Shown: one piece after another, positions 6,713 through 46,515 of the stretch
Layout of the letters: every line of letters begins with the position of its first letter
Position numbering within the stretch: the first letter of the stretch is position 1
Origin: Microthrixaceae bacterium
GTDB taxonomy: Bacteria; Actinomycetota; Acidimicrobiia; Acidimicrobiales; Acidimicrobilacustridaceae
Assembly (NCBI GenBank): GCA_947446975.1
Contig: CANFHM010000012.1
Span: 1 to 46,515, forward strand
Direction: 5' to 3'
Length of the DNA stretch: 46,515 nt
Notes under the pieces: model-generated
Told to the model about the DNA's origin: nothing
Seen by the model: the letters and a program-made list of their open reading frames with translations, nothing else
Database searches by the model: none
Position numbers and translations under genes: made by a program

Positions 6713-7930
6713 ATGGATTTCGAGGAGACACCAGAGGAAGCCGCATGGCGAGCCGAGTGCCGCGCATTCCTGTCGCAGCACGCGTCGGAGAAGTCCGCCG
6801 ACAAGATGACACTCACCATGAGCACCATGGCCGAGGACGAACTCGCCCATGTGCAGGCGTGCCGCGACTGGCAGCGCACCAAGGCCGAGGCGGGCTGGGC
6901 CGGCCTCACCTGGCCGGTCGAGTACGGCGGTCGCGGGCTCAGCGGCCTGCTGCAGGGGATCTTCCTCGAGGAGGAGTCCCATTTCGACGTGCCGCCGGGG
7001 ATGTTCGCCCAGGCCATCGGCATGGTCGGGCCCTCGATCATCGTGCACGGCACCGAGGAGCAGAAGACCACCTTCCTCCCGTCGATCCTGCGTGGTGAGC
7101 AGGTCTGGTGCCAGCTGTTCTCCGAGCCCAACGCCGGTTCCGATCTCGCCGGGCTGCGCACCAAGGCCGAACTCGACGGTGACGAATGGGTCGTCACCGG
7201 GCAGAAGGTCTGGACCTCCTCGGCCCATGTCTCGGACTGGGGCATGTTGCTCGCCCGCACCGATTTCGACGCCCCGAAGCATCGTGGCATCACCTACTTC
7301 CTCCTCGACATGCGCTCTCCCGGCATCGAGGTCCGTCCGCTCAAGCAGGCCACCGGTGGCGCCGAGTTCAACGAGGTGTTCCTCGAGGAGGTGCGCATCC
7401 CGGTCGGCAACGTGCTCGGCGAGGTCAACGGCGGCTGGGCGGTGGCCATGACCACGCTCACCAGCGAGCGGGCCGACATCGGTTCCGGTCACGGCATGAG
7501 CTTCAGCAACATCCTCGAACTCGCCCGTCGTTTCGGCGTCACCGACGATCCTGTGATGCGTCAGAAGCTCATGCAGCTCCACATCAGCTACGAGATCAGC
7601 CGCTTCACCGGCTACCGGATGCGCACGGCCGCATCCCGTGGCGAGGCGCCCGGTCCGGAGGTCTCGGTGGCCAAGATCGCCGTGTCGAACCGCCTCGCGT
7701 TCCAAGGCGATCTCGTCGAGGAGATCATGGGTGCCTCGGGCATGTTGTGGGGCGACGACGCCCCCGACGACGGCTACTGGCAGTCCATGGTGTTCACCGG
7801 TCAATGGATGGCCCGCATCGGTGGCGGCACCGAGGACGTCCAGCGCAACATCGTCGGCGAGCGCGTGCTCGGTCTGCCGCGAGAACCCAGCAACGATCGC
7901 ACCACGCCGTTCCGCGAACTCCCGCACTGA
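6713..7930 (+). CDS. Acyl-CoA dehydrogenase
   Basis: FAD-dependent acyl-CoA dehydrogenase (405 aa) introducing an alpha-beta double bond in an acyl-CoA. It shows the family's middle-domain motif FSEPNAGSDLAGLRTKA, then DEWVVTGQKVWTSSAH and the C-terminal helical domain ending IGGGTEDVQRNIVGERVLGLPR. The length is typical. The start ATG follows GAGGGGG closely. The EPNAGSDL form and N-terminus (DFEETPEEAAWRAECRAFL) are common in FadE-like proteins of actinobacteria that act on sterol or branched side chains, but specificity is not readable. It is flanked by a crotonase and a cytochrome P450, a set that would suit oxidation of a hydrophobic or terpenoid acid. Confidence 0.9.
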   Translation: MDFEETPEEAAWRAECRAFLSQHASEKSADKMTLTMSTMAEDELAHVQACRDWQRTKAEAGWAGLTWPVEYGGRGLSGLLQGIFLEEESHFDVPPGMFAQAIGMVGPSIIVHGTEEQKTTFLPSILRGEQVWCQLFSEPNAGSDLAGLRTKAELDGDEWVVTGQKVWTSSAHVSDWGMLLARTDFDAPKHRGITYFLLDMRSPGIEVRPLKQATGGAEFNEVFLEEVRIPVGNVLGEVNGGWAVAMTTLTSERADIGSGHGMSFSNILELARRFGVTDDPVMRQKLMQLHISYEISRFTGYRMRTAASRGEAPGPEVSVAKIAVSNRLAFQGDLVEEIMGASGMLWGDDAPDDGYWQSMVFTGQWMARIGGGTEDVQRNIVGERVLGLPREPSNDRTTPFRELPH

Positions 7931-7958
7931 TCCCCACGAAAGCCGGTCGACACCTCTC

Positions 7959-9173
7959 ATGTTCAATCCCTTCGAACCGGGTTTCGCCGCCGATCCCTAT
8001 CCGCATCTGCGCGAACAGCGCGAGACCGAACCGATCCAGCGGTTGCTGTTCGGTCCCTGGATCCTCTTCGAGCACGCCGATTCCATGGCGCTGCTGCGCA
8101 ACACGTCCACCAGCGTCGAGGTGGGCAACGCCACCTCGCTCGACCCCGAGCGCGAGAAGCTGCGCGAGGCGCTCATCGATGAGGTCGCGCCCGAGTCCAA
8201 GGGGCGCGAGCGCCTCGCCATCCTCAACATCGATCCTCCGGATCACACCCGCCTGCGCAAGCTCGTGAGTTCGGTGTTCACTCCCCGACGGATCGGCGAG
8301 CTGCAGCCCATGATCGAACGGGTGGTGCACGAGCACCTCGACGCCGTCGAGTCCGCCGGCACGATGGATCTCATCCCTGATCTCGCCTTCCCGCTGCCGT
8401 TCACGGTCATCTCCGAGATGCTCGGCATGCCCACCGAACACCGCGAGCAGGTGCGTGAGTGGTCGCACACCCTCGTGCGCATCCTCGACTTCACCATCAG
8501 CGAGGACGAGACCCGCGCCGCCCTCATCGCCGGCTCGCAGATGCGTCAGCATCTCAAGGGCGTCATCGAGTGGAAGCGCGAGAACCCCGCCGATGATCTG
8601 CTCACCGCCATGATCCGGGCCGAGGCCGATGGCGACAAGATGAGCGACGCCGAACTGCTCGAGCAGGTGATGCTGCTGTACATCGCCGGCCACGAGACCA
8701 CCGTGAACCTCATCGGCAACGGCACCTGGGCGCTGCTGCAGAACCGCGACCAGCTCGAGCGCTGGCGCGACGGCGATGCTGACGACACCGTCGCCATCGA
8801 CGAGCTGCTGCGCTACGACTCACCGGTGCAGCTCTCGCGTCGCATCGCCATGGCCCCCATGGAGATCCACGGTGAACTCATCGAGCCGGGCTCATTCGTG
8901 TTCACCTCGCTCGGCTCATCCAACCGCGATCCGCTGATGTTCGGCGAGGACGCCGATGTGCTCGATCTCGGACGCCCCACCGCCAGCCGTCATCTCTCGT
9001 TCGGCAGCGGTCTGCACCATTGTCTGGGAGCGTCGTTGGCCCGCCTGCAGGGGGCCGAGGCCATCAAAGGGCTCATCCGGCGCTTCCCCGATGTGCAGGC
9101 CGATGGCGGGCCCGACTGGAACGGCCGGCTCGTGCTGCGGGGCATGGAGTCGCTGCGACTCACGCTCTCCTGA
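7959..9173 (+). CDS. Cytochrome P450
   Basis: Soluble bacterial P450 monooxygenase (404 aa). The I-helix oxygen-activation motif AGHETT, the K-helix ELLRY (ExxR) and the heme-binding loop FGSGLHHCLGASLARLQG, with Cys355 as the heme ligand, are all intact. The N-terminus MFNPFEPGFAADPYPHL has no membrane anchor, as usual for bacterial class I enzymes, which need separate ferredoxin partners; none is seen nearby. It follows the acyl-CoA dehydrogenase by 28 bp, so the two probably share a transcript. Its TGA is immediately followed by the stop of the convergent FAD oxidase gene. Substrate unknown. Confidence 0.93.
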   Translation: MFNPFEPGFAADPYPHLREQRETEPIQRLLFGPWILFEHADSMALLRNTSTSVEVGNATSLDPEREKLREALIDEVAPESKGRERLAILNIDPPDHTRLRKLVSSVFTPRRIGELQPMIERVVHEHLDAVESAGTMDLIPDLAFPLPFTVISEMLGMPTEHREQVREWSHTLVRILDFTISEDETRAALIAGSQMRQHLKGVIEWKRENPADDLLTAMIRAEADGDKMSDAELLEQVMLLYIAGHETTVNLIGNGTWALLQNRDQLERWRDGDADDTVAIDELLRYDSPVQLSRRIAMAPMEIHGELIEPGSFVFTSLGSSNRDPLMFGEDADVLDLGRPTASRHLSFGSGLHHCLGASLARLQGAEAIKGLIRRFPDVQADGGPDWNGRLVLRGMESLRLTLS

Positions 9174-10457
9174 TCAGCGCCGACGGTCCTGCATCCGGAA
9201 CCAGGACCCGACGATCGGGGTCCAGAGCCGTCGCCAGCGGGACAACGGCACCGGTGGATGGCGCAGGTCGATGAACGGCGGCGCCTCGGCCTCGCCGATC
9301 ATGGCATCGGCCATCCGCATGCCGAGCCACGGCATGAGCGCCACACCGCTGCCGTTGCATCCGGTGGCGTAGGCCACGCGGTCGAAGCTCCCCACATGCG
9401 GGAGTCGATCCACGGTGAGCGCGACCTCGCCGCCCCATGCGAAGTCGATGGCGGTGCCGGCCAGCTGCGGATGCACCCGCACCATGGAGTCGTTGAGGAA
9501 ATCGGCGGCATCGGCGACCGTGGTGCTGCGCAACGACCTGCGACCCCCGAAGGCCAGCCGCCCGTCGGGGGTGAGGCGCCAGTAGAACAGCAGATTCTTC
9601 GAGTCGACGAGCATGCGGTTGTGGGGCGAGATCGAGTGCGCCAGTTCCTCATCGAGCACCTCGGTGGCGATGATGAAGCTGCCCACGGGCAGCACCCGAC
9701 GCTGGAGTTTCGGCAGCAGGTGATCGGCGGTGGCGTTGGTGGCCACGAACACGAGATCCGTGCGGATCGGACCCCGATCGGTGGTGACGGTGTGTGCGCC
9801 GGGACCGTCGTCGCTGATGGCCAGCGCACGGGTGTGCGCATGGAGCTGCACGTCGAGCGCCATGCAGCGGCGCAGCAGCCCGGCATGGAACCGGGCCGGC
9901 TGGAGTCCGCCGGTGCGGGCGATGACCATGCCGGCCCGGTACGCCGAGGAGCCGATCTCCGATCGAAGTGCCTCGCCCTCGATCAGACGGACGTCCTCGC
10001 CGTGGGCCCGGTGGTCGGCCACGGCCTCACGCATGGCGCGATGCGCCACCTCGTTGTGCGCCAGGTACAGCTGACCGGTGCGCTGGTAGTCGCAGGGGAT
10101 CTGCGCCTCGGTGATGAGCTGCTCGGTCCAGTCGAAGGCCTCGTTGACGGCTGCGTACATGCGGGTGCCGAGATCGCCGTAGCGTTCCCGGAGCGCCCCG
10201 GGCCCAGCCTTGAGCTCGGGGATCACCATGCCGCCGTTGCGGGTGCTGGCCCCGGTGCTGAACGCTCCCGCCTCGACGACCACGACCGATCGACCGTGCT
10301 CCGCGAACCGGCGTGCGGCGGCGAGTCCGGCGTAGCCGGCACCGACGACCACCACGTCGGCACTGCTCGGCAGGGGCGCGGCCGTGACCTCCGGTGCCCC
10401 GGCATCGACATGCCACAGGACGGATTCGGTGAAGACCTCGGACCGGCGGGCGACCAT
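9174..10457 (-). CDS. FAD-dependent amine oxidoreductase, PuuB-like (DAO family)
   Basis: Flavoenzyme of the D-amino-acid-oxidase family (427 aa). A Rossmann dinucleotide motif VVVVGAGYAGLAAARRFAEHG lies at about residues 35-55, followed by STGASTRNGGM, the FAD-contact region typical of PuuB/OrdL proteins. The C-terminal part has ATGCNGSGVALMPWLG. PuuB oxidises gamma-glutamylputrescine; with a polyamine importer and aldehyde dehydrogenases nearby, a secondary or primary amine substrate is a reasonable inference. I see no glutamylputrescine synthetase (PuuA), so the true substrate is open. It starts with ATG six bases after a TACGCT box, so it is probably leaderless, and it is divergent from the aminotransferase operon. 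Confidence 0.8.
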   Translation of the reverse strand: MVARRSEVFTESVLWHVDAGAPEVTAAPLPSSADVVVVGAGYAGLAAARRFAEHGRSVVVVEAGAFSTGASTRNGGMVIPELKAGPGALRERYGDLGTRMYAAVNEAFDWTEQLITEAQIPCDYQRTGQLYLAHNEVAHRAMREAVADHRAHGEDVRLIEGEALRSEIGSSAYRAGMVIARTGGLQPARFHAGLLRRCMALDVQLHAHTRALAISDDGPGAHTVTTDRGPIRTDLVFVATNATADHLLPKLQRRVLPVGSFIIATEVLDEELAHSISPHNRMLVDSKNLLFYWRLTPDGRLAFGGRRSLRSTTVADAADFLNDSMVRVHPQLAGTAIDFAWGGEVALTVDRLPHVGSFDRVAYATGCNGSGVALMPWLGMRMADAMIGEAEAPPFIDLRHPPVPLSRWRRLWTPIVGSWFRMQDRRR

Positions 10458-35351: not shown

Positions 35352-35403
35352 CTTCACCCTGCGTTCACCTGTCCGTTCATCTGGATGTCAGACGTTCATG
35401 AAC
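35352..35403 (+). promoter_or_regulatory. PHO-box-like direct repeats upstream of pstC
   Basis: CTTCACC, GTTCACC and then CGTTCAT lie at 11-base steps (35352, 35363, 35374), followed by weaker units ATGTCAG (35385) and TCATGAA (35396). Actinobacterial PhoP binds 11-bp direct repeats with a GTTCACC-like core, so this is a likely PhoP operator for the pst operon, about 150 bases before the pstC start. GTTCATGAAC at 35394-35403 is also a perfect palindrome. The rest of the gap to 35547 shows no further clear signal. Confidence 0.7.
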
Positions 35404-35547
35404 TGTTGGCCGTGGGTTGGTTGCCCGGAATGGGTCCCTCCCGTTCACTTGGGGCATCCGGTCGCTGCGGTCCCACACCTCGCGCCCGGGCCCCTCTTGC
35501 TTCCCTCTGGCCGCCCCGCCGGCCTGCCCTCTGGAGAACCCCCACCT

Positions 35548-36570
35548 GTGTCCGGAATCGATCTGCAGGATCCACCGACGCCGCCGTCGCCGGCTCCGGG
35601 TGCCGGCCGCACCAAGCGGGTCGTCACCGAGGTTCCCAGCGTCGTCGACCGTCGCTTCAACGCCATCACGATGGGCGCCGGCATCTCGGTGCTCGTGCTG
35701 CTGCTGCTGGTGGGCGCCTTCCTGCTCATCCAGAGCTCCGATGCCATCTCCCAGACCGGCATCCTGCGGTTCCTGACCCGCACCGAATGGCGCACCGACG
35801 TGCAGCCGCCGGCCATCGGCGTGCTCGGTCTGCTCACCGGCACGGTCCTGGTGGCGGTGGTGGCGGTGCTGTTCGCCGTGCCGCTCAGCGTGTTCTGCGC
35901 ATTGGCCATCACCGAGTACTCCACCGCCCGTCGTCGCAAGTGGCTCATCGGCGTGGTCGACCTGCTGGCCGCGGTGCCGAGTCTGCTGTTCGGTCTGTGG
36001 GGCTTCCTCTACCTCTCGGACAAGATGATCCCGATCTCCACCTGGCTCTCGCAGAACCTCGGATTCATCCCGTTCTTCCACACCGAGAAGAACGCCAGCC
36101 TCACCGGTTCGATCTTCATCGCCGGTGTGGTGGTGGCGCTCATGGTGCTGCCGATCATCACCTCGGTCACCCGGGAGGTGTTCTCGCAGACCCCTCCGGG
36201 CGAGAAGGAGGCGGCGCTCGCCCTCGGTGGCACCCGGTGGGGCATGATCCGCTCCGTCGTGCTGCCCTACGGCCGTGGCGGCATCATCGGCGGCTCCATG
36301 CTCGGTCTGGGCCGGGCGCTCGGTGAGACCATCGCCGTGGCCCTGCTGCTGCCCCAGGTGCCCCAGCGCATCGGCGACAGCATCCACATCCTCCAGAACG
36401 GCGGCGCCACCGTGTCGGGCTTCATCGCCAACCGGGCCGGTGCCGATGCGTTCACGGTCTCGGGGCTGATGGCCGCCGGCCTCGTGCTGTTCATCATCAC
36501 GCTGGCCACCAACATGATCGCCTCGGTGGTCGTGGCCAGGAGCCGTTCGGGTGCGGGAGTCGACCTGTGA
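35548..36570 (+). CDS. pstC: Phosphate ABC transporter permease PstC
   Basis: First permease of the high-affinity phosphate importer (340 aa from the GTG at 35548). A Pro-rich cytoplasmic N-terminus precedes six hydrophobic segments. PstC features include LAAVPSLLFGLWGFLYLSD, ALALGGTRWGMIRSVVLPYGRGGI (the ATPase contact loop) and LGRALGETIAVALLLP. GGAGA lies 12 bases before the start; the open frame extends 50 codons upstream through unlikely sequence. It leads a pstC-pstA-pstB-pstS operon in which every junction overlaps, behind PHO-box-like repeats. Confidence 0.93.
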   Translation: MSGIDLQDPPTPPSPAPGAGRTKRVVTEVPSVVDRRFNAITMGAGISVLVLLLLVGAFLLIQSSDAISQTGILRFLTRTEWRTDVQPPAIGVLGLLTGTVLVAVVAVLFAVPLSVFCALAITEYSTARRRKWLIGVVDLLAAVPSLLFGLWGFLYLSDKMIPISTWLSQNLGFIPFFHTEKNASLTGSIFIAGVVVALMVLPIITSVTREVFSQTPPGEKEAALALGGTRWGMIRSVVLPYGRGGIIGGSMLGLGRALGETIAVALLLPQVPQRIGDSIHILQNGGATVSGFIANRAGADAFTVSGLMAAGLVLFIITLATNMIASVVVARSRSGAGVDL

Positions 36571-37844
36571 GCACCGACACCACCTCCACCATGCCGACCC
36601 CGTCGCCCGCCCCCGCTGCGACCACCGCGTCACCGGCCCGCCCCGCCCCGCAGCGCCGGGCCCGCCGACCCCGCGAGTTCACCAACTTCGACGTCTGGGT
36701 CCTGGTCGGATCGGTCATCAGTGCGCTCTGCCTCAACTGGCTCATCTTCTACCGGCTCACCGCCGGGGCCAGCCTCTTCGGCTTCCTGCTGTGCTCGTAC
36801 CTCACGTTCCTCGCCATCTTCGGTGCGGTCACCGCTGATCGGGTGGGCCGACTCGTGGCCACCGACCGGGTGATGACCGTGGTGGTGGTGAGCGCCGCAG
36901 CCATCGTGTTCGTGCCCCTCGTGCTGCTCATCGGGTACATCCTCGTGCAGGGCCTCAAGGCGCTCCGCCCGAACTTCTTCATCAGCGATCAGGAGGGCAT
37001 CACCCCGGTGCTCCCGTCCACCTCGGGCGGTGCCTCGCACGCCATCGTGGGATCGATCGAACAGGTGGGTCTGGCCCTGCTGTGGTCACTGCCGCTGGCG
37101 CTCGCCGCCGCGGTGTTCCTCAACGAGTCCCGCAGCCGGTGGCGCCGTCCGGTGCGCATCTTCGTCGACGCCATGAGCGGTCTGCCCTCCATCGTCGCCG
37201 GTCTGTTCATCTTCGCCACGCTCATCCTGCCGTTCGCCAAGAGCGGCAATCCGCTGTTCGGGTACAACGGCTTCATGGCCTCGCTGGCCCTGGCCATCAC
37301 GATGCTGCCCACCATCACGCGCACCGTCGACGTGGTGCTGCGCCTCGTGCCCGACGGCCTGCGCGAGGCCTCGCTGGCGCTCGGTGCATCCCGGGCCCGC
37401 ACCGTCATCTCCATCGTGTTCCCCACGGCCCGCACCGGCATGACCACCGCCGTGGTGCTCGGCATCGCCCGTGCGGTGGGCGAGACCGCCCCGCTGCTGT
37501 TCACGGCGTTCGGCTACGACCTCATGAACGCCAATCCGTTCGCCGGGTCGCAGGAGAGCCTCCCGCTGTTCGTGTACCGCAACATCCGCAAGCCCGACCT
37601 CTCCGCCATCGAGCGCGGTTTCGCCGGCGCCCTCGTGCTGCTGCTGCTCGTCGTGGCCCTGTTCGCCCTCGCCCGCTTCATCGGACGCGATCGCTCCAAG
37701 CGGCGCGGCACCCCGAAGGGTGGCGGCGCCGCAGTGCAGATCAACCCCGACGACCCGCTCAACGCCCCGATCGTCCCCAGCACCGGCATCCCGTCCGGTG
37801 CGGACCCGTCCTCGCATCCCCAGCAGGAGCCGATCACCTCATGA
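36567..37844 (+). CDS. pstA: Phosphate ABC transporter permease PstA
   Basis: Second permease (425 aa), longer than the usual 280-300 residues because of a Pro/Ala-rich, then hydrophobic N-terminal extension of about 120 residues (extra membrane segments around [17 protein letters not shown] and [17 protein letters not shown]) and a hydrophilic C-terminal tail. The core shows [38 protein letters not shown] and [18 protein letters not shown], as in PstA. The GTG overlaps the pstC stop (GTGA). The extra N-terminal membrane hairpin also occurs in some actinobacterial PstA proteins; its job is unknown. Confidence 0.92.
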
Positions 37845-38710
37845 CCGACATCCACGAAAGGGCACTGCCCATGACCGAGACCCTCGTCGCTGAAAGCCCC
37901 GCAGTCGGTCGTGCCACGATCATCGGCGGTCCGCCCCCCGGTGCCGCCACGCTCGAGGCCCGCGGCGCCTGCGCATGGTTCGGCGATCGCCTCGTGCTCG
38001 AGGGCGTCGATCTCGTGATGCCCGCCGGCCAGGTCACGGCGCTCATCGGCCCGTCCGGCTGCGGCAAGTCCACGTTCCTGCGTCTGCTCAACCGCATGCA
38101 CGAGCTCATCCCCGGCGCCGCCCTCGACGGTGAGATCCTCCTGGACGGCACCGACATCTACGCCACCGGCACCCGGGCCCAGCAGGTCCGCATGCGCATC
38201 GGCATGGTGTTCCAGAAGCCGAACCCGTTCCCGGCCATGAGCATCCGCGAGAACGTGCTCGCCGGTCTCAAGCTGGCCCGCCTCAAGTGCGATGAGAAGG
38301 ACGACCTCGTCGAACAGTCGCTCATCCGCGCCGGCCTGTGGAAGGAGGTGCGCGACCGCCTCGACAGTGCCGGTGGTGCGCTCTCCGGTGGTCAGCAGCA
38401 GCGTCTGTGCATCGCCCGTTCGCTCGCCGTGCAGCCCAACGTGCTGCTCATGGATGAGCCCTGTTCGGCACTCGACCCCACCTCCACCCGTCGGGTCGAG
38501 GAGACCATCGACGAGCTGCGCGGTGAGGTCACCGTCGTGATCGTCACGCACAACATGCAGCAGGCCAACCGGGTCTCGGACATCTGTGCGTTCTTCCTGG
38601 CCGCCGAGAACCAGCCCGGCGCCGTCGTCGAGCAGGGCCCGACCCGCAAGATGTTCGAGAACCCCGACGATCCCCGCACCCTCGACTACGTCGAAGGTCG
38701 CTTCGGCTGA
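37841..38710 (+). CDS. pstB: Phosphate ABC transporter ATPase PstB
   Basis: ATPase of the phosphate importer (289 aa). Walker [10 protein letters not shown] is at 70-78, the family segment VFQKPNPFP at 123-131, signature LSGGQQQR at 181-188 and Walker B with [10 protein letters not shown] at 204-213. [28 protein letters not shown] is the usual PstB ending. The ATG at 37841 overlaps the pstA stop (ATGA). A second in-frame ATG at 37871 has GAAAGG nine bases upstream and could be the main start; this would remove ten residues. Its stop overlaps the pstS start by one base. Confidence 0.95.
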
Positions 38711-40269: not shown

Positions 40270-40350
40270 TCGGTCAGGAACACTTCCCCCCGTCGTGCGA
40301 TGCGCCGACGTCGTTGCACCTTCCCTAACCCCTCCGAAAGGACCCACGCT

Positions 40351-41712
40351 GTGAAGAGTTCTCTTCTCAAGCGCAGCCTGATCGCCGGTGCTGTGGTCGC
40401 CACCTCCGTGGCCGCCTACATCCCGATGATCAACGCTGCCTCCGCCGATGTGATCACCGCTGCTGGCTCGGACACCACCGAGAACGTCATGGGCTCCATC
40501 CTCAGCCAGCTCAACACCGACGCCAACCCCACCTACAACGTGCCGGTGTACAACTCCAACAACTTCTCCCTCCCCGGCGACTCCTTCTGCCCGGACATCG
40601 TCTTCCCCCGCACGCTCGGCGCCACCCCGCTGCCCACGGCCACTGCTCCGGCGATCGCCACCCCGAACGGTTCGGGTGCCGGCCGCAACGCCCTTCGTGA
40701 CTACGTGACCAGCACCAAGCGCTACTCCGGTGGCGTCGAGGTGCTCAACACCGACCCCGGCTATCCCACCGCCACTCCGGTGACCGGCTGCGTCGACATC
40801 GCCCGTTCCTCCTCGTTCAGCTCCGGCTCTCCGGCGGCCACCAAGGGCCAGTACTACGCCTTCGCCCTCGACGCCGTGTCCTGGGCCTCGCCGAGCTCGA
40901 AGGCTCCGGCCACCCTGTCGCTGGCCAACCTGAAGAAGATCTACGACTGCACCTACACCGACTGGTCGCAGGTCGGCGGCACCGCCGGCCCGATCCAGCG
41001 CTACCTGCCGCAGTCGAGCTCGGGCACCCGCTCGTACTTCATCACCGATCTGCTCGGCCTCTCCTCCACGGCCACCTTCCCGGCCGTGGGCGACAACTGC
41101 CCGGCAGCGCTCGCCGTCGACAAGAACGGCGATCCCTTCGAGGAGAACCGCGGCGACAAGATCCCGACTGCTGATCTCGAGAAGGCCATCTTCCCCTACT
41201 CGGCCGGCCAGTGGGCCTTCCAGGCCAACAACTCGGCGAACCCGTCGATCGACCAGCGCAAGTCGAGCACCGGTACGGTCACCCAGATCAAGGGCATCGA
41301 CAACCATGTCGGCGACTCCCAGCTGTGGAACTCCTCGGCCGTGGTCCTCAACTCCATCGATGGCCGCTACCAGCTCAATGACGCCGGTTGGCAGACCGTC
41401 GACCCGACCGTGGCCGCCGGTGGCTACCCCGTGATCGAGGGCAACACCACGAAGGCTTCGGGCAAGGCCTACAACACCGTGGACTACCCGGGCGTCCGTC
41501 TCGTCTACAACGTCCTCCACACCGATTCCCCCAGCTACACGACCGCTCGTGGCCTCGTCGGCTTCAACAACATCGACGGTGGCGCCAAGAGCCAGCTGTG
41601 CAGCGGCGCCTTCAAGACCACCATCTCGGCCTTCGGGTTCTCGCCGCTCACCAGCACGGTGAACCAGACCTCGAACCTCGCCGGCGCAACCTGCCGCCGC
41701 TACCTGGCCTAG
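40351..41712 (+). CDS. Secreted PstS-like phosphate-binding protein
   Basis: Second substrate-binding protein (453 aa) of the PstS type. A Sec signal (MKSSLLKRSLIAGAVVATSVAAY...) is cleaved near AASADVIT, and the mature protein begins ITAAGSDTTENVM, the usual start of this actinobacterial PstS branch. The ligand loop LPQSSSGTRSYF is at 219-230. There is no lipobox or C-terminal anchor, so it is secreted or held by partners. The GTG at 40351 has AAAGGA eight bases upstream; an in-frame ATG at 40300 is unlikely. It is preceded by PHO-box-like repeats and followed by a strong hairpin. Confidence 0.85.
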   Translation: MKSSLLKRSLIAGAVVATSVAAYIPMINAASADVITAAGSDTTENVMGSILSQLNTDANPTYNVPVYNSNNFSLPGDSFCPDIVFPRTLGATPLPTATAPAIATPNGSGAGRNALRDYVTSTKRYSGGVEVLNTDPGYPTATPVTGCVDIARSSSFSSGSPAATKGQYYAFALDAVSWASPSSKAPATLSLANLKKIYDCTYTDWSQVGGTAGPIQRYLPQSSSGTRSYFITDLLGLSSTATFPAVGDNCPAALAVDKNGDPFEENRGDKIPTADLEKAIFPYSAGQWAFQANNSANPSIDQRKSSTGTVTQIKGIDNHVGDSQLWNSSAVVLNSIDGRYQLNDAGWQTVDPTVAAGGYPVIEGNTTKASGKAYNTVDYPGVRLVYNVLHTDSPSYTTARGLVGFNNIDGGAKSQLCSGAFKTTISAFGFSPLTSTVNQTSNLAGATCRRYLA

Positions 41713-41772: not shown

Positions 41773-42447
41773 ATGCCTGCTTCCTCGAGATGGACCGAAC
41801 CGAGAGTGATGGTGCCGAGCATCATCGCAGTGGTGGCCATCTGCGCCCTTCTCGGTGTCCTGCTCGTGGGCGGCGGTTCCGATGGGTCCAAGGGCACCGC
41901 GGCTCCCGCGGCCGCCGACGGTCCCACCTCGACCACCGCAGCGCCGGGTTCGACCCCCTCGACCACCGTCGTGCCTCCTTCCGGCGGCACTGCCCAGGGC
42001 TCCTACACCACACCGACCATGCCGGTGCGGGTGGAGATCCCCGAGGTGTCAGGACGGCCGGTCACCGATGGGGTCGTCGACGGTCAGGCGATCACCGTCC
42101 ACGGTGATCCCGAACCCGGATCGATGCTCTATGGCGTCGAGGCCCGTCTGTGCCGGGGGGATGTCGCCATCGTCAGTGACGGTGACTTCGCCCCCACCCT
42201 GGGTGGTCGTTGCATCGACAAGCCGCTCTCGGCGATCTCCGATGCCAAGGTCGAGGTCGTGGGCACCGAGCCCTACTCCGGTCTCGATGTCACCTTCCGG
42301 GTCGGCGTCGGGTCCACGACCTACATAACCCAGTACGACGGTCCCACGACCATCACCTGCGGCCCCGCCTCACCCTGCCAGATCGTGCTGAAGCTCCAGT
42401 ACCCCAAGGGATTCGGCTTCAAGGGAATCCCTGTCACGTACCGCTGA
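41773..42447 (+). CDS. Membrane-anchored protein with neocarzinostatin-like beta-domain
   Basis: Protein of 224 aa with a signal-anchor helix (about residues 14-33), a Pro/Thr/Ser linker (about 40-80) and a C-terminal extracellular domain (about 84-224). That domain has four cysteines, C127-x19-C147 and C196-x5-C202, and the motifs ARLCRGD, GDFAPTLGGRC, TQYDGPTTITC and CQIVLKLQY. The same domain occurs twice in the next gene and once in the one after. Layout and motifs resemble the neocarzinostatin fold (two small disulfide loops, DG...C...C near the end), judged from memory. ATG at 41773 has GAAAGG at good spacing. Function unknown; likely cell-surface. Confidence 0.7.
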   Translation: MPASSRWTEPRVMVPSIIAVVAICALLGVLLVGGGSDGSKGTAAPAAADGPTSTTAAPGSTPSTTVVPPSGGTAQGSYTTPTMPVRVEIPEVSGRPVTDGVVDGQAITVHGDPEPGSMLYGVEARLCRGDVAIVSDGDFAPTLGGRCIDKPLSAISDAKVEVVGTEPYSGLDVTFRVGVGSTTYITQYDGPTTITCGPASPCQIVLKLQYPKGFGFKGIPVTYR

Positions 42448-42505
42448 ACCCCTCCTCACTCATCCATCCACCGGGCGCCGAGCGCCCGAGAGAGGTCACA
42501 CTCTG

Positions 42506-44626
42506 ATGATTCGCTCCTTCCGCTCCCGCCTGGTGGCGGTGTCGACCGGGGTGCTGCTCGCCGCAGCAACCCTGGGGACACTCGCTCCGGTGGCGCAGGC
42601 CGAGACCGCGGCGGGCCAGATCCCCGCCACGATCACGGCCTCACCGACCACCGGACTCGTCTCGGGCTCCACGGTCACCGTCTCGGCCACCGCCGACACC
42701 AACTGGAACATCTACTCCCTCCGTGCCCGGCTCTGCTCGGCCGATGCCACCATCGACAACGCCGGTGACTTCTCGCCGACCCTCGGTGGCAACTGCATCG
42801 CCGCGCCGCTCGCCGACGGCACCGACAAGGACGTCACCGTCACCACCGAGCCCGGTGCTCGTGGTTCCGCCTCGCTCGACTTCAAGGTCGGCGCCGGCAC
42901 CAACACGTTCACCACCCAGTACGACGGCTCGAAGACGATCTCCTGCGGCGTGGCCTCGGCCACCGGTTGCAAGCTCGTCGTCGAGATGTCGGCCACGAAC
43001 CTGGCTGCCCGCGTGATCTACAAGTCCTTCCCGCTGACCTATGCCGCTCCGAACGCCCCCACTGGCGTCTCCGCTGCATGGGGCAACGCCAAGGCTGTGG
43101 TGTCCTGGACGGCTTCCGCTGCCCAGACCGGACTTCCGGCAGTGACCTCCTACACGGTGACCTCCTCGCCCGGGAACCTCACCTGCATCACCTCCAGCAC
43201 CAGCTGCGAGGTCAGCGGCCTCACCAACGGCACCGCCTACACGTTCTCGGTGACCGGCACCAACGCCCTCGGCACCTCGGCTGCCTCCACCTCCTCGGCG
43301 GCGATCACGCCCTCGAGCGCCCAGTACGTGCTGAGCTCCACCCCGACCACCGGCCTGGTGTCAGGTGACACGGTCGCCCAGACGGTCTCAATGACCACGG
43401 GCGCCAGCCTCTATTCCGTGCGCACCCGTCTGTGCAAGGCCTCGGCCACCATCGCCAACGCCGGTGACTTCTCACCCACGCTCGGCGGCAACTGCATCGC
43501 CTCGGCGCTCGCGGTCGGCACCGACAAGGACGTCACCGTCACCACTGAAGCCGGTGCTCGTTCCGGCGCCACGCTGAACTTCAAGGTCGGCGCCGGCACC
43601 AACACCTTCACCACCCAGTACGACGGCTCGACCACCATCACCTGTGGCTCGTCGGCCCCGTCCGCCTGCGCCCTGGTCACCGAGCTCAGCTACACCACCC
43701 CGCTCGGTCTCGGCAAGGTCGTCTACGTGACCACCGGCCTGACCTATGCGTCGGCTCCGGCCACTCCCGCGGCGCCCACCGGTGTGTTCAACGGCGTCGG
43801 TGCCGTACAGGTCTCCTGGACCGCTCCGGCCGACGGTGGCTCGGCCATCACCGGCTACCGGGTCGAGGCCGCACCGCAGGTCCTCGGTGTCACGAAGTTC
43901 TGCACCACCACCGGAGCGACCACCTGCAAGGTGAGCGGTCTCACGAAGGGAGTCTCCTACACCTTCACGGTGCGGGCCACCAACGTGGTCGGGAACAGCT
44001 CCTACTCCGCCAACTCGCAGGCCTTCGTGCCGACCACGACCAACGTCCCGACCCTGTCGACGGCTCCCACCGCACTCACGCTGGAGTCGGCGCTCAACGG
44101 CTCGTTCACGGTGACCTGGACCGCTCCCACCGGCAACGGCGGCTCGAGCATCCAGCGCTACACGGTGACCGCCACCGCCACGGGTCAGACCACCCGCAGC
44201 TGCGAGGTGGCCTTCGGGGCACCGCTCACCTGCACGCTCGCCCCGGTCACCAACGGTGTGAAGTACCTCATCTCCGTGAGCGCGGTGAACGGCGTCGGCT
44301 CGAAGACCTCGACGCTCAAGAACAAGATCGCCGTGTCGACCCCGGGAGCGCCCACGGGCGTGAACGGCTCGCAGACCACCAGCGCCGCTGCGGTGAAGGT
44401 GGCCTGGACGGCTGCTGCGGCCAACGGCTCGGCAGTCACCGCCTACAACGTGACGGTCTGGCAGGGTGCGACCCAGGTGTCGGGCAAGACCTGCTCCACC
44501 CTCGGGACCACCAACTGCTCGATCAGCGGTCTGGCCAAGAACACCACCTACACCTTCAAGGTCACCGCGACCAATGGCCAGGGCACTGGCCCGGTCGGTT
44601 CGGGCACCTACACCACCAAGCCCTGA
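42506..44626 (+). CDS. Secreted protein with two neocarzinostatin-like domains and four FN3 domains
   Basis: Exported multidomain protein (706 aa). A Sec signal ends near APVAQAET. Order: beta-domain 1 (about 41-180, Cys77, 97, 147, 155), FN3 (181-270), beta-domain 2 (273-416, Cys310, 330, 380, 388), then FN3 at about 421-512, 517-613 and 614-706. The two beta-domains share long near-identical stretches such as NAGDFSPTLGGNCIA and VGAGTNTFTTQYDGS, showing recent duplication. FN3 units each end in YTFxVxATN-type strands and carry extra cysteine pairs. No anchor is seen, so it is secreted or bound by partners. GAGAGAGG precedes the ATG. Binding or adhesion role inferred; no enzyme motif seen. 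Confidence 0.75.
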   Translation: MIRSFRSRLVAVSTGVLLAAATLGTLAPVAQAETAAGQIPATITASPTTGLVSGSTVTVSATADTNWNIYSLRARLCSADATIDNAGDFSPTLGGNCIAAPLADGTDKDVTVTTEPGARGSASLDFKVGAGTNTFTTQYDGSKTISCGVASATGCKLVVEMSATNLAARVIYKSFPLTYAAPNAPTGVSAAWGNAKAVVSWTASAAQTGLPAVTSYTVTSSPGNLTCITSSTSCEVSGLTNGTAYTFSVTGTNALGTSAASTSSAAITPSSAQYVLSSTPTTGLVSGDTVAQTVSMTTGASLYSVRTRLCKASATIANAGDFSPTLGGNCIASALAVGTDKDVTVTTEAGARSGATLNFKVGAGTNTFTTQYDGSTTITCGSSAPSACALVTELSYTTPLGLGKVVYVTTGLTYASAPATPAAPTGVFNGVGAVQVSWTAPADGGSAITGYRVEAAPQVLGVTKFCTTTGATTCKVSGLTKGVSYTFTVRATNVVGNSSYSANSQAFVPTTTNVPTLSTAPTALTLESALNGSFTVTWTAPTGNGGSSIQRYTVTATATGQTTRSCEVAFGAPLTCTLAPVTNGVKYLISVSAVNGVGSKTSTLKNKIAVSTPGAPTGVNGSQTTSAAAVKVAWTAAAANGSAVTAYNVTVWQGATQVSGKTCSTLGTTNCSISGLAKNTTYTFKVTATNGQGTGPVGSGTYTTKP

Positions 44627-44644
44627 TGAGGAGCTTCTGATCCC

Positions 44645-46515
44645 ATGATCACCAACCGGCTCCGCCGGGTCGGTTCGCTGATGGTGGTGGGTGTCGTGGC
44701 AGCAGCCGCGACACTCACCACCCTCGGCGCGTCCGGCACCCCTGTTCGAGCCCAGGACACCGGCATGGCGCCCTGGACCGTCTCGGTCTCCCCGGCCAGC
44801 AACCTCACCGACGGACAGTTGATCTCCATCAACCTCCAGACCACCACAGAGCATCGGATCTACGAGGCGAACGCCCAGATCTGTCGGCTCGGGGTCGACT
44901 ACGCCACCAGCGACGGCGATCGCCCGGCGGCCGATTTCAACGCCGGCGATCTCAACTGTCCGGCCATCCCCATCTCGTCGAGCGCCGATGTGCAGACCGG
45001 CGACGCGAACCTCTACTCCAGCGCCACCGAGCCCGGTGGTTCCACGTTCTCGATGTACATCGGCAGCGGTGTGGCCGAATGGCCGGCCCGCTCCAACGGC
45101 AGCACCCAACGACTCGCGTGCGACGCCGATCACCCCTGTGCCCTCGTGGTCGAGGTCTACGGCTCAGTCGCCCCCGGCGAGGCCCGATGGATCCCCTTCG
45201 TCCAGACCCTCACCTATCGCGTCGATGATCCCGTCGCCGGCTGCGGTGGTCCGGCTGCTGGCGTCCTCAACGCCGCCGGACCCGAGCGCGTCACCGATCT
45301 CTGGGTGAACTGGACCCTCGATCAGTGCCATCTCCCCGATGCCCAGACCGGCGCCGCCTCCCGCACGAGCTTCTCCGACGAGGGCGACGCCATGAACGGG
45401 TTCTCGAGCGGCTCGCTGGACCTCGCCTACAGCGCCGTCGGCTACGACCCGGGCCCGAAGCTCGGTCTCGGCACCCGGACCGAGGCTCTCACCCCCCGGG
45501 CCTCCACGGCCGTCCCGATCGCTCTGAACGCCACCGTGGTGGCAGTCGGCAACGGCCGTCGCGGGCCCAACGATCGCAAGATCCCGTTCACCGACGTGAA
45601 GCTCACGATGGATCAGGTCACCCACATGTTCAGCGGTGGGCCGTCGGATTTCACCGACTACTCCTACGACTCGTTCCTCGACCTGAACCCGCAGTTCGCC
45701 GAGGCGAGCGTGTTCCTCCCCGCCGCGATCCAGGTGGGTGCCTTCGCCCCGGCGGATGCCTCCTCCTGGTTCCTCACCAGCTTCCTGAAGGCCAATCGTC
45801 CGGCGCTGTGGAAGGTGCCCGACACCAACAAGTACGGACCGGAACGGGGTCTCACCCGTGACCCCTCCATCGCGTTCGGTGTCGCTGCGCCTTCGTTCAA
45901 CGGATCGGTCGACATGTTCACCGGCAACTCGGTGCTCGTGAAGACCATCCGCAGCCAGAACCTCGACGCCTACGGTGGCATCTGGGTGCTCACCGATCTG
46001 GTCACCGCCAAGCATCTCGGTCTCGCCGTGGCGAGCATCGAGAACGCCAACGGCGAATTCGTGGCTCCGACCGCCGAGTCGATGGCCGCCGCGGTCCCGA
46101 CCATGACCAGCACCTCGGACGGGCGACTCCTGCCCGATCCCACCGCCACCGTCGACAAGGACGCCGTGCAGCCGTACCCGCTCACGTTCGTCGACTACGC
46201 CATCGCCCCGACCTCGAAGCTCGTGGACAAGAACTGCAAGGGGCGCACCGCCTCGCAGGCACTCCTGAACACGTGGCTCGGCTACGCCACCGGCGACGGG
46301 CAGACCAAGCTCCCCGACGGCAATGTCCCGCTCACCGATGAGCTGCGAGCGACGGCCGCCACCGCCATCGCCGCGGTCGGCTCCGCGACCCCGGCCTGCT
46401 ACGTGGAGGGCGATCCCATCACCCCGCCGCCGGCCGTCGGATCCGCTCCCACCGCGGGCGGCGGTTCCTCCGGTGTGCGTCCGTCCGTGCAGGCCGTCGC
46501 CGCCGCCGGTGACGC
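44645..46515 (+). CDS. Neocarzinostatin-like domain fused to PstS-like binding domain (partial, 3' end outside window)
   Basis: Exported protein, at least 623 aa, open to the window edge. A signal peptide ends near PVRAQDTG. Residues about 44-192 form a beta-domain with Cys80, 105, 159 and 165 (DGQLISINLQ, ICRLG, LACDADHPCALVVEV, LTYR), the same type as in the two preceding genes. Residues about 193-580 look like a periplasmic binding protein of the PstS type, with VKLTMDQVTHMFSGG, YPLTFVDYAIAPTS and LGYATGDGQTKLPDGNVPL, the family's C-terminal pattern. A Pro/Gly/Ser-rich tail begins near 590 and suggests a linker to an anchor beyond the window. GAGGAG lies 11 bases before the ATG; the gene starts 18 bp after the FN3 protein. 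Confidence 0.7.
   Translation, partial: MITNRLRRVGSLMVVGVVAAAATLTTLGASGTPVRAQDTGMAPWTVSVSPASNLTDGQLISINLQTTTEHRIYEANAQICRLGVDYATSDGDRPAADFNAGDLNCPAIPISSSADVQTGDANLYSSATEPGGSTFSMYIGSGVAEWPARSNGSTQRLACDADHPCALVVEVYGSVAPGEARWIPFVQTLTYRVDDPVAGCGGPAAGVLNAAGPERVTDLWVNWTLDQCHLPDAQTGAASRTSFSDEGDAMNGFSSGSLDLAYSAVGYDPGPKLGLGTRTEALTPRASTAVPIALNATVVAVGNGRRGPNDRKIPFTDVKLTMDQVTHMFSGGPSDFTDYSYDSFLDLNPQFAEASVFLPAAIQVGAFAPADASSWFLTSFLKANRPALWKVPDTNKYGPERGLTRDPSIAFGVAAPSFNGSVDMFTGNSVLVKTIRSQNLDAYGGIWVLTDLVTAKHLGLAVASIENANGEFVAPTAESMAAAVPTMTSTSDGRLLPDPTATVDKDAVQPYPLTFVDYAIAPTSKLVDKNCKGRTASQALLNTWLGYATGDGQTKLPDGNVPLTDELRATAATAIAAVGSATPACYVEGDPITPPPAVGSAPTAGGGSSGVRPSVQAVAAAGD

Follow-up and report, generated by a model that had tools for sequence, protein, structure and literature searches.

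Four copies of one four-cysteine domain are present in three adjacent genes for exported proteins, here named A, B and C, which lie directly behind the phosphate-uptake genes pstC-pstA-pstB-pstS1-pstS2 at the end of contig CANFHM010000012.1 of a Microthrixaceae bacterium (assembly GCA_947446975.1, 2.35 Mb, completeness 88.6%). This contig, G000:C12 in our numbering, was analysed over its full length of 46,515 nucleotides and is hereafter called the window. Profile comparisons make it very probable that this domain forms a divergent branch within the neocarzinostatin superfamily, homologous to PF00960; the relation is one of superfamily-level homology, not of membership of Pfam's curated family. 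The homology is well supported, and the function is what we infer. The proteins and their parts map as follows:

41773..42447, + strand: protein A, with an N-terminal membrane segment, a Thr/Ser/Pro linker and a single domain
42034..42444, + strand: predicted neocarzinostatin-related domain, copy A, in protein A
42506..44626, + strand: protein B, with a signal peptide, domain, FN3, domain and three further FN3
42602..43045, + strand: predicted neocarzinostatin-related domain, copy B1 (PF00960 E 0.0079, NF040680 E 0.0055)
43325..43750, + strand: predicted neocarzinostatin-related domain, copy B2, in protein B
44645..46515, + strand, extending past the window end: protein C, with a signal peptide, domain and PstS-like half
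44753..45220, + strand: predicted neocarzinostatin-related domain, copy C, in protein C, with the longer first loop C-x24-C
45230..46513, + strand: PstS-like half of protein C, with a degenerate phosphate-pocket motif (hhalign to PstS1)

Membrane segments and signal peptides of the three proteins were assigned by eye. Pfam fn3 recognised four stretches of protein B (E 5e-47) and TIGR00975 matched protein C (E 8e-7, far below its cut-off), in line with the three architectures, membrane-anchored, FN3-linked and PstS-fused, described in the initial annotation of this DNA. The end of the window is shared, over 371 bases and at 99.2% identity, with contig C7 of this assembly, on which the C-terminal membrane segment of protein C is found.

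In the window, the first cysteine pair is spaced C-x19-C in A, B1 and B2 and C-x24-C in C, and the second is separated by five residues in A and C and by seven in B1 and B2, exactly as first annotated. The GDFxPTLGGxC and TQYDGxxxIxC segments that had been attributed to the copies are found in three of the four (A, B1 and B2); copy C lacks both, having GDLNC and SNGSTQRLAC instead. Sixteen columns, including the four cysteines, are invariant across all four window copies. In pairwise BLASTP among them, the lowest E value was 7e-58 (B1 against B2) and the highest 4e-6 (A against C). When a profile was made exclusively from A-type copies, it recovered B1, B2 and C at E 3e-31, 3e-30 and 7e-8, in a search space of 1940 six-frame open reading frames from the window and 11 loci. 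Across relatives, the four cysteines are invariant in 41/41 aligned copies (near-full-length and non-redundant), with a first loop of x19 in 28 of the 41 and of x20-24 in the remaining ones. Alignment A2 left out copies whose profile match started after 14, ended before 125 or scored below 40 bits, as well as copies more than 90% identical. Alignment A5 (41 rows) and the tree left out the copy of locus L038, cut by the contig end, and the A5 row of locus L040 begins after Cys1, so that Cys1 is not in every A5 row. A profile search of the window's own genome, taken to E 0.1, detected no copy beyond these four, and a scan of viral contigs with copy B1 returned 15 pattern matches and no relative.

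The relation to the neocarzinostatin family was assessed by comparing alignments. PF00960 copies were gathered from 17 of 396 genomes of the phylum and 84 of 298 of the order, and a 17-row alignment of them matched the solved apoproteins in the PDB: C-1027 at E 2e-15, macromomycin at 4e-15, neocarzinostatin at 2e-14, kedarcidin at 3e-10 and actinoxanthin at 2e-9. When the window family was aligned with PF00960 copies by hhalign, the probability was 92.5% with 17 rows and 95.9% with 109 rows. With 97 PF00960-type rows that include the last strand (rows starting after position 4, ending more than 8 positions early or not extendable were dropped), the 41 copies reached a probability of 96.2%, an E value of 2.2e-9 and a score of 53.2. 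The superfamily alignment spans 97-106 columns. The profile-profile check against the neocarzinostatin family that the initial annotation had proposed is therefore positive, and its suggestion of the same or a neighbouring fold family agrees with both this score and the register of the cysteines.

Shuffling controls support the same conclusion. Specifically, 200 column shuffles of the query against the 97 rows gave at most 18.4 (mean 10.7, standard deviation 2.0) and the reversed query 12.0, compared to the real 53.2; against the 109 rows, the real score on match columns was 43.3, with a maximum of 19.4 in 200 shuffles and 11.3 for the reversed query. The segment after Cys1 alone, last strand included, scored 24.8, and none of 200 shuffles exceeded 17.4. 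All four cysteine columns coincide one to one with those of PF00960 under the default settings of hhalign. With every cysteine masked, the score was still 40.5, against no more than 14.6 in 100 shuffles, and the cysteine register was reproduced only in part; the cysteines therefore contribute to the register, and the homology does not depend on them.

Searches with single copies point the same way at lower strength: PF00960 is matched by 7 of the 41 members (best E 0.0022), DUF4360 likewise by 7 of 41 (best E 0.025), and the enediyne chromoprotein family NF040680 by 18 of 41 (best E 1.6e-4). Two further proteins act as bridges. The first, L077/L196, is a protein-C orthologue of genome G580 with pstS2- and pstC-like genes as neighbours. 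NF040680 recognises its N-terminal domain at E 1.1e-5, and in a small database this domain was hit by both the iterated PF00960 profile (E 2.9e-8) and the window profile (E 1.9e-7). The second, L078, has one domain and, as judged by eye, a membrane segment at its C-terminus; its match to NF040680 extends over positions 3-121 of 133 (E 1.3e-6), and its match to the window profile lies at the C-terminal end (E 0.0066). A Pfam scan at E 1 gave a PF00960 match in neither of the two bridges. When bridge rows were added to the query, kedarcidin, macromomycin and C-1027 became the top three among the four PDB matches listed (E 0.034, 0.10 and 0.19).

Several results count against this assignment. None of the 41 copies scanned exceeds the curated cut-offs (25 bits for PF00960, 86 bits for NF040680). 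The first test of the segment after Cys1 was not significant (12.3 against a maximum of 13.4 in 100 shuffles), and significance was reached only after the last strand had been added to the PF00960 alignment. As said, the cysteine register returns only partly upon masking. The direct PDB search was not significant (kedarcidin at E 0.18 and 0.67), an antibody chain (E 0.0069) or an arginine kinase (E 0.13) outranked kedarcidin and macromomycin, and kedarcidin came first only with the bridge rows; the PDB matches are individually not significant and count as direction only. A direct Pfam assignment was consequently rejected, no copy being over the cut-off. In conclusion, profile homology and bridges on the one hand, and scores below the cut-offs on the other, lead us to name the domain a divergent superfamily branch and not a curated Pfam member.

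The comparison with the neocarzinostatin family (PF00960, NF040680, IPR002186; neocarzinostatin, C-1027, kedarcidin, macromomycin and actinoxanthin), whose fold is known mainly as an enediyne drug carrier, shows what the likeness consists of. Beside the profile homology, the two have in common the order of the four cysteines, two short-range pairs, export and similar opening strands. The window domain differs in its first loop, x19-24 against x4-15 in 84 of the 85 PF00960 copies with all four cysteines, and in the stretch between the cysteine pairs, 48-55 residues against 28-42 in 84 of these 85. A further difference is that the proteins bearing it are anchored, FN3-linked or PstS-fused and are encoded at a phosphate locus.

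Some observations concern PF00960 domains themselves. In the order they often occur several per open frame, with at least 15 matches in one genome. A protein of genome G019, from the same genus as the window (L051, 1405-2829), is a predicted alpha/beta hydrolase with PAF-acetylhydrolase, peptidase S9 and PETase-like matches, fused to a C-terminal PF00960 domain that is over the cut-off. The window's own genome holds a weak PF00960 match (E 0.0026) at G000:C3:16074-16223, in a 425-aa frame. Chain M of PDB entry 7qhm, ThiX, matches the PF00960 alignment at positions 3-91 with E 0.0033; ThiX is described as a lipid-anchored subunit of the respiratory supercomplex of Corynebacterium glutamicum whose soluble domain is unresolved (PMC8795186).

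As far as distribution is concerned, the four-copy profile found matches in 14 of the 41 genomes of the relatives set, with 12 among the 21 genomes of the window's genus, and in the order as a whole 12 of 298 genomes gave a match to the 41-copy profile with E no higher than 0.01. Among named genomes, an A-type query retrieved 11 loci, all metagenome-assembled, with record titles reading Microthrixaceae, Acidimicrobiia, Acidimicrobiales, Actinomycetota or Actinobacteria, Candidatus Microthrix, Bifidobacterium breve and Acidobacteria. Protein A of the closest named relative, titled Microthrixaceae, is 81% identical to that of the window. Protein A in L033 and L036, titled Acidobacteria and Bifidobacterium breve, is 77% and 54% identical to the window's, and these two titles are probably wrong. 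In a tree of 42 copies, the A-type copies (100/99) and the C-type copies (100/100) each form one clade, both starred, and the types are therefore older than these species; the placement of L075 is unsure because of its long branch, the tree program warning of long branches meeting.

The second part of the argument regards the gene neighbourhood. The final 11 kb of the window contain the following genes upstream of A, B and C, all on the same strand:

35398..36570, + strand: pstC, an open reading frame with uncertain 5' end, named by comparison, not by family search
36567..37844, + strand: pstA, from the open reading frame and comparison across loci
37841..38710, + strand: pstB, start inferred from the ATG overlap in L036
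38710..40212, + strand: PstS1, phosphate-binding protein with a C-terminal membrane segment assigned by eye (PF12849 E 3e-29, TIGR00975 E 1e-49)
40300..41712, + strand: PstS2, a second PstS-like protein (PF12849 E 7e-14)

Window pstC is 74-94% identical to pstC of the seven other loci holding it. PstS1 matches solved PstS proteins at E 8e-27 and retains the R-x3-SGTT motif. Intergenic gaps are 60 bases between pstS2 and A, 58 between A and B and 18 between B and C. A promoter scan revealed no promoter-like site, and a terminator scan gave 4 terminator-like sites, with 2.9 expected.

The order pstC-pstA-pstB-pstS1-pstS2-(further genes in some)-A-B-C-sortase-like gene is kept in 11 of the 11 named loci as far as their contigs extend. 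The pst genes are found upstream in 10/10 loci whose contig reaches that far (the L035 contig begins later), in agreement with the tie to phosphate-uptake genes proposed at first sight. Protein C follows in 9 of the 11 loci, its start is visible in L038, and L033 ends before it; in farther loci it is 46-48% identical. In families f93 and f3, C also has pst genes next to it but is divergently oriented to pstC, and the order is thus different. L036, L037 and L038 contain an extra domain-FN3 protein between pstS2 and A (in L036 at 6910-8535). In the same interval L036 also encodes a WxL-interacting peptidoglycan-binding protein (8645-9742, PF06030 E 1.8e-7), with homologues in L035, L038 and L193. 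The clusters of these relatives thereby resemble WxL surface-protein systems; unlike such systems, the window, L032-L034, L037 and L039-L042 showed no WxL-interacting homologue by BLASTP. On the other side of the balance, the 11 loci hold A by construction, since they were found with an A-type query, and the sole links to phosphate that sequence offers are co-location and the PstS-like half of protein C.

That half was compared with PstS1 by hhalign (10 C rows against 10 PstS1 rows), yielding a probability of 97.3% and an E value of 2.5e-11 over 355 columns. It is alike to PstS (TIGR00975, PF12849) over this length, and unlike PstS it scores far below the curated cut-off and lacks R-x3-SGTT: in a single profile alignment, which is not a structure, IQVGAFAPADASS is aligned with INVVYRGGQSGTT. 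The R-x3-SGT segment is common to PstS1 and the solved PstS proteins shown, and its residues are those that bind phosphate. An intact phosphate pocket in protein C was therefore rejected.

A comparable picture emerged for the gene after C, located beyond the window on contig C7 (L162 6804-7850), which encodes a class E sortase-like membrane protein (PF04203 E 1.4e-14; NF033747 E 3e-17, below the NF033747 cut-off), with further copies at L032 14738-15766 and L036 14722-15906 and sortase domain matches from E 1e-14 to 6e-18. The likeness to class E sortases (NF033747, PF04203) lies in the sortase domain. The difference is in the catalytic residues: arginine takes the place of the GH-motif histidine in 13/13 copies read, and at the position of the catalytic cysteine, that of the LVTC motif of class E sortases, the 12 complete copies read have serine (11) or alanine (1). 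An active sortase was consequently rejected, and an apparently dead class E sortase seems to be kept across several families.

What can be read from sequence comprises the homology, the order of the four cysteines, the three architectures and the conserved gene order. The explanation we favour, and consider somewhat better than evenly supported, is that these are divergent neocarzinostatin-superfamily modules in an envelope complex co-encoded with phosphate uptake. By homology, the domain would be an exported beta-sandwich with disulfides Cys1-Cys2 and Cys3-Cys4 and an enlarged first loop. A, B, C and their companions may form one shared envelope complex, to which we give about an even chance, and which would be produced under the same conditions as the phosphate transporter. 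In such a complex, N-terminal anchoring would fix A in the membrane and C-terminal anchoring C, and B would be a secreted rod composed of FN3 and neocarzinostatin-type modules. Docking or scaffolding is the probable role of C's PstS-like half and of the sortase-like protein, as suggested by the loss of the phosphate-pocket motif in the one and of both catalytic residues in the other. The modules would most likely provide the ligand- or partner-binding surface of the complex, and would either capture a substrate outside the membrane or hold the PstS proteins and the wall together; that they are a specific binding surface is a tentative proposal, to which we assign clearly less than an even chance. 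More speculative still, and rather unlikely, is the idea that a neocarzinostatin-type cleft was recruited to nutrient capture and, with a motif-less PstS and a non-catalytic sortase, makes up an envelope machine devoid of catalytic parts, which would trap a ligand or polymer containing phosphorus at the wall for delivery to Pst.

The strongest alternative, which we regard as a serious competitor if short of an even chance, is that the domains simply serve wall proteins as structural spacers or for adhesion, and that these proteins happen to be encoded beside pst, phosphate being irrelevant. The abundance of PF00960 domains in the order (84/298 genomes, often several per protein) and the companions of the window domain, namely FN3, the sortase-like protein and, in some relatives, the WxL-interacting protein, are what such modules would lead one to expect. 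This view accounts less well for a pst neighbourhood present in all ten loci that reach it, with C still 46-48% identical in the farther ones, for the PstS-derived half of protein C, and for the pst genes standing beside C, divergently oriented, in families f93 and f3.

Improbable, in our opinion, is that the domains carry a small hydrophobic or reactive molecule for defence or signalling, like the enediyne apoproteins. Carrier apoproteins hold their chromophore in a cleft, and the homology to them, by the PF00960 comparison and the PDB apoprotein matches, speaks for such a role. Against it stand the neighbours, which are pst and envelope genes, and the membrane anchoring of A and C, ill-suited to a released carrier. 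In addition, a ketoacyl-synthase search of the window's own genome and of G008, G011 and G012, three relatives that carry the domain, gave five places, one or two in each genome; all were in frames of only 410-438 aa, and an enediyne synthase is several times longer. The long enediyne-type ketoacyl-synthase gene was thus not found in these four genomes, its absence from the window's own genome being unproven because that assembly is 89% complete. An enediyne cluster in the own genome was rejected on the length of the frames, which also fits the earlier idea of a use outside antibiotic clusters.

Less probable again is an origin of the domain in another Ig-like family (TIG/IPT, FN3 or similar), with no more than an N-terminal strand motif in common with neocarzinostatin: the strongest similarity does lie within the first 40 columns and the TIG and PF00960 profiles are partly alike (score 32), but the window family scored only 15.3 with TIG (57 rows, probability 1.3%) and 14.4 with FN3 (28 rows, 0.8%) against 53.2 with PF00960, the segment after Cys1 exceeded all 200 shuffles, and no TIG appeared among the 19 families listed for the 41 members against Pfam, so that TIG/IPT and FN3 were ruled out and this alternative is already largely refuted.

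A neocarzinostatin-like domain in the cell wall has a precedent. CwpG of Actinoplanes missouriensis is described as a candidate sortase-dependent cell-wall protein with such a domain (IPR002186; PMC13251363). It has in common with the window proteins a neocarzinostatin-like domain in a cell-wall or envelope context, and the passages of that article consulted mention neither PstS nor phosphate genes, in contrast to the window proteins at their pst locus. Since such a domain in a cell-wall protein is already published there, the new part, judged against those passages, is the phosphate link with the degenerate PstS and sortase partners. In the literature searches made, no paper was found on this locus or on PstS fusions.

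In conclusion, our analysis suggests that a domain of the neocarzinostatin kind may have a role outside antibiotics too. If the uptake reading is true, this would be, to our knowledge, the first neocarzinostatin-type domain tied to uptake rather than to an antibiotic. A divergent branch is kept at a phosphate locus of uncultured actinobacteria, and PF00960 domains occur in 84 of the 298 genomes examined in the order; both observations suggest that exported domains of this kind form a wider family, from which the drug carriers are a single offshoot. With this locus the family acquires an ordinary role that can be tested, and a scaffold braced by disulfides becomes available.

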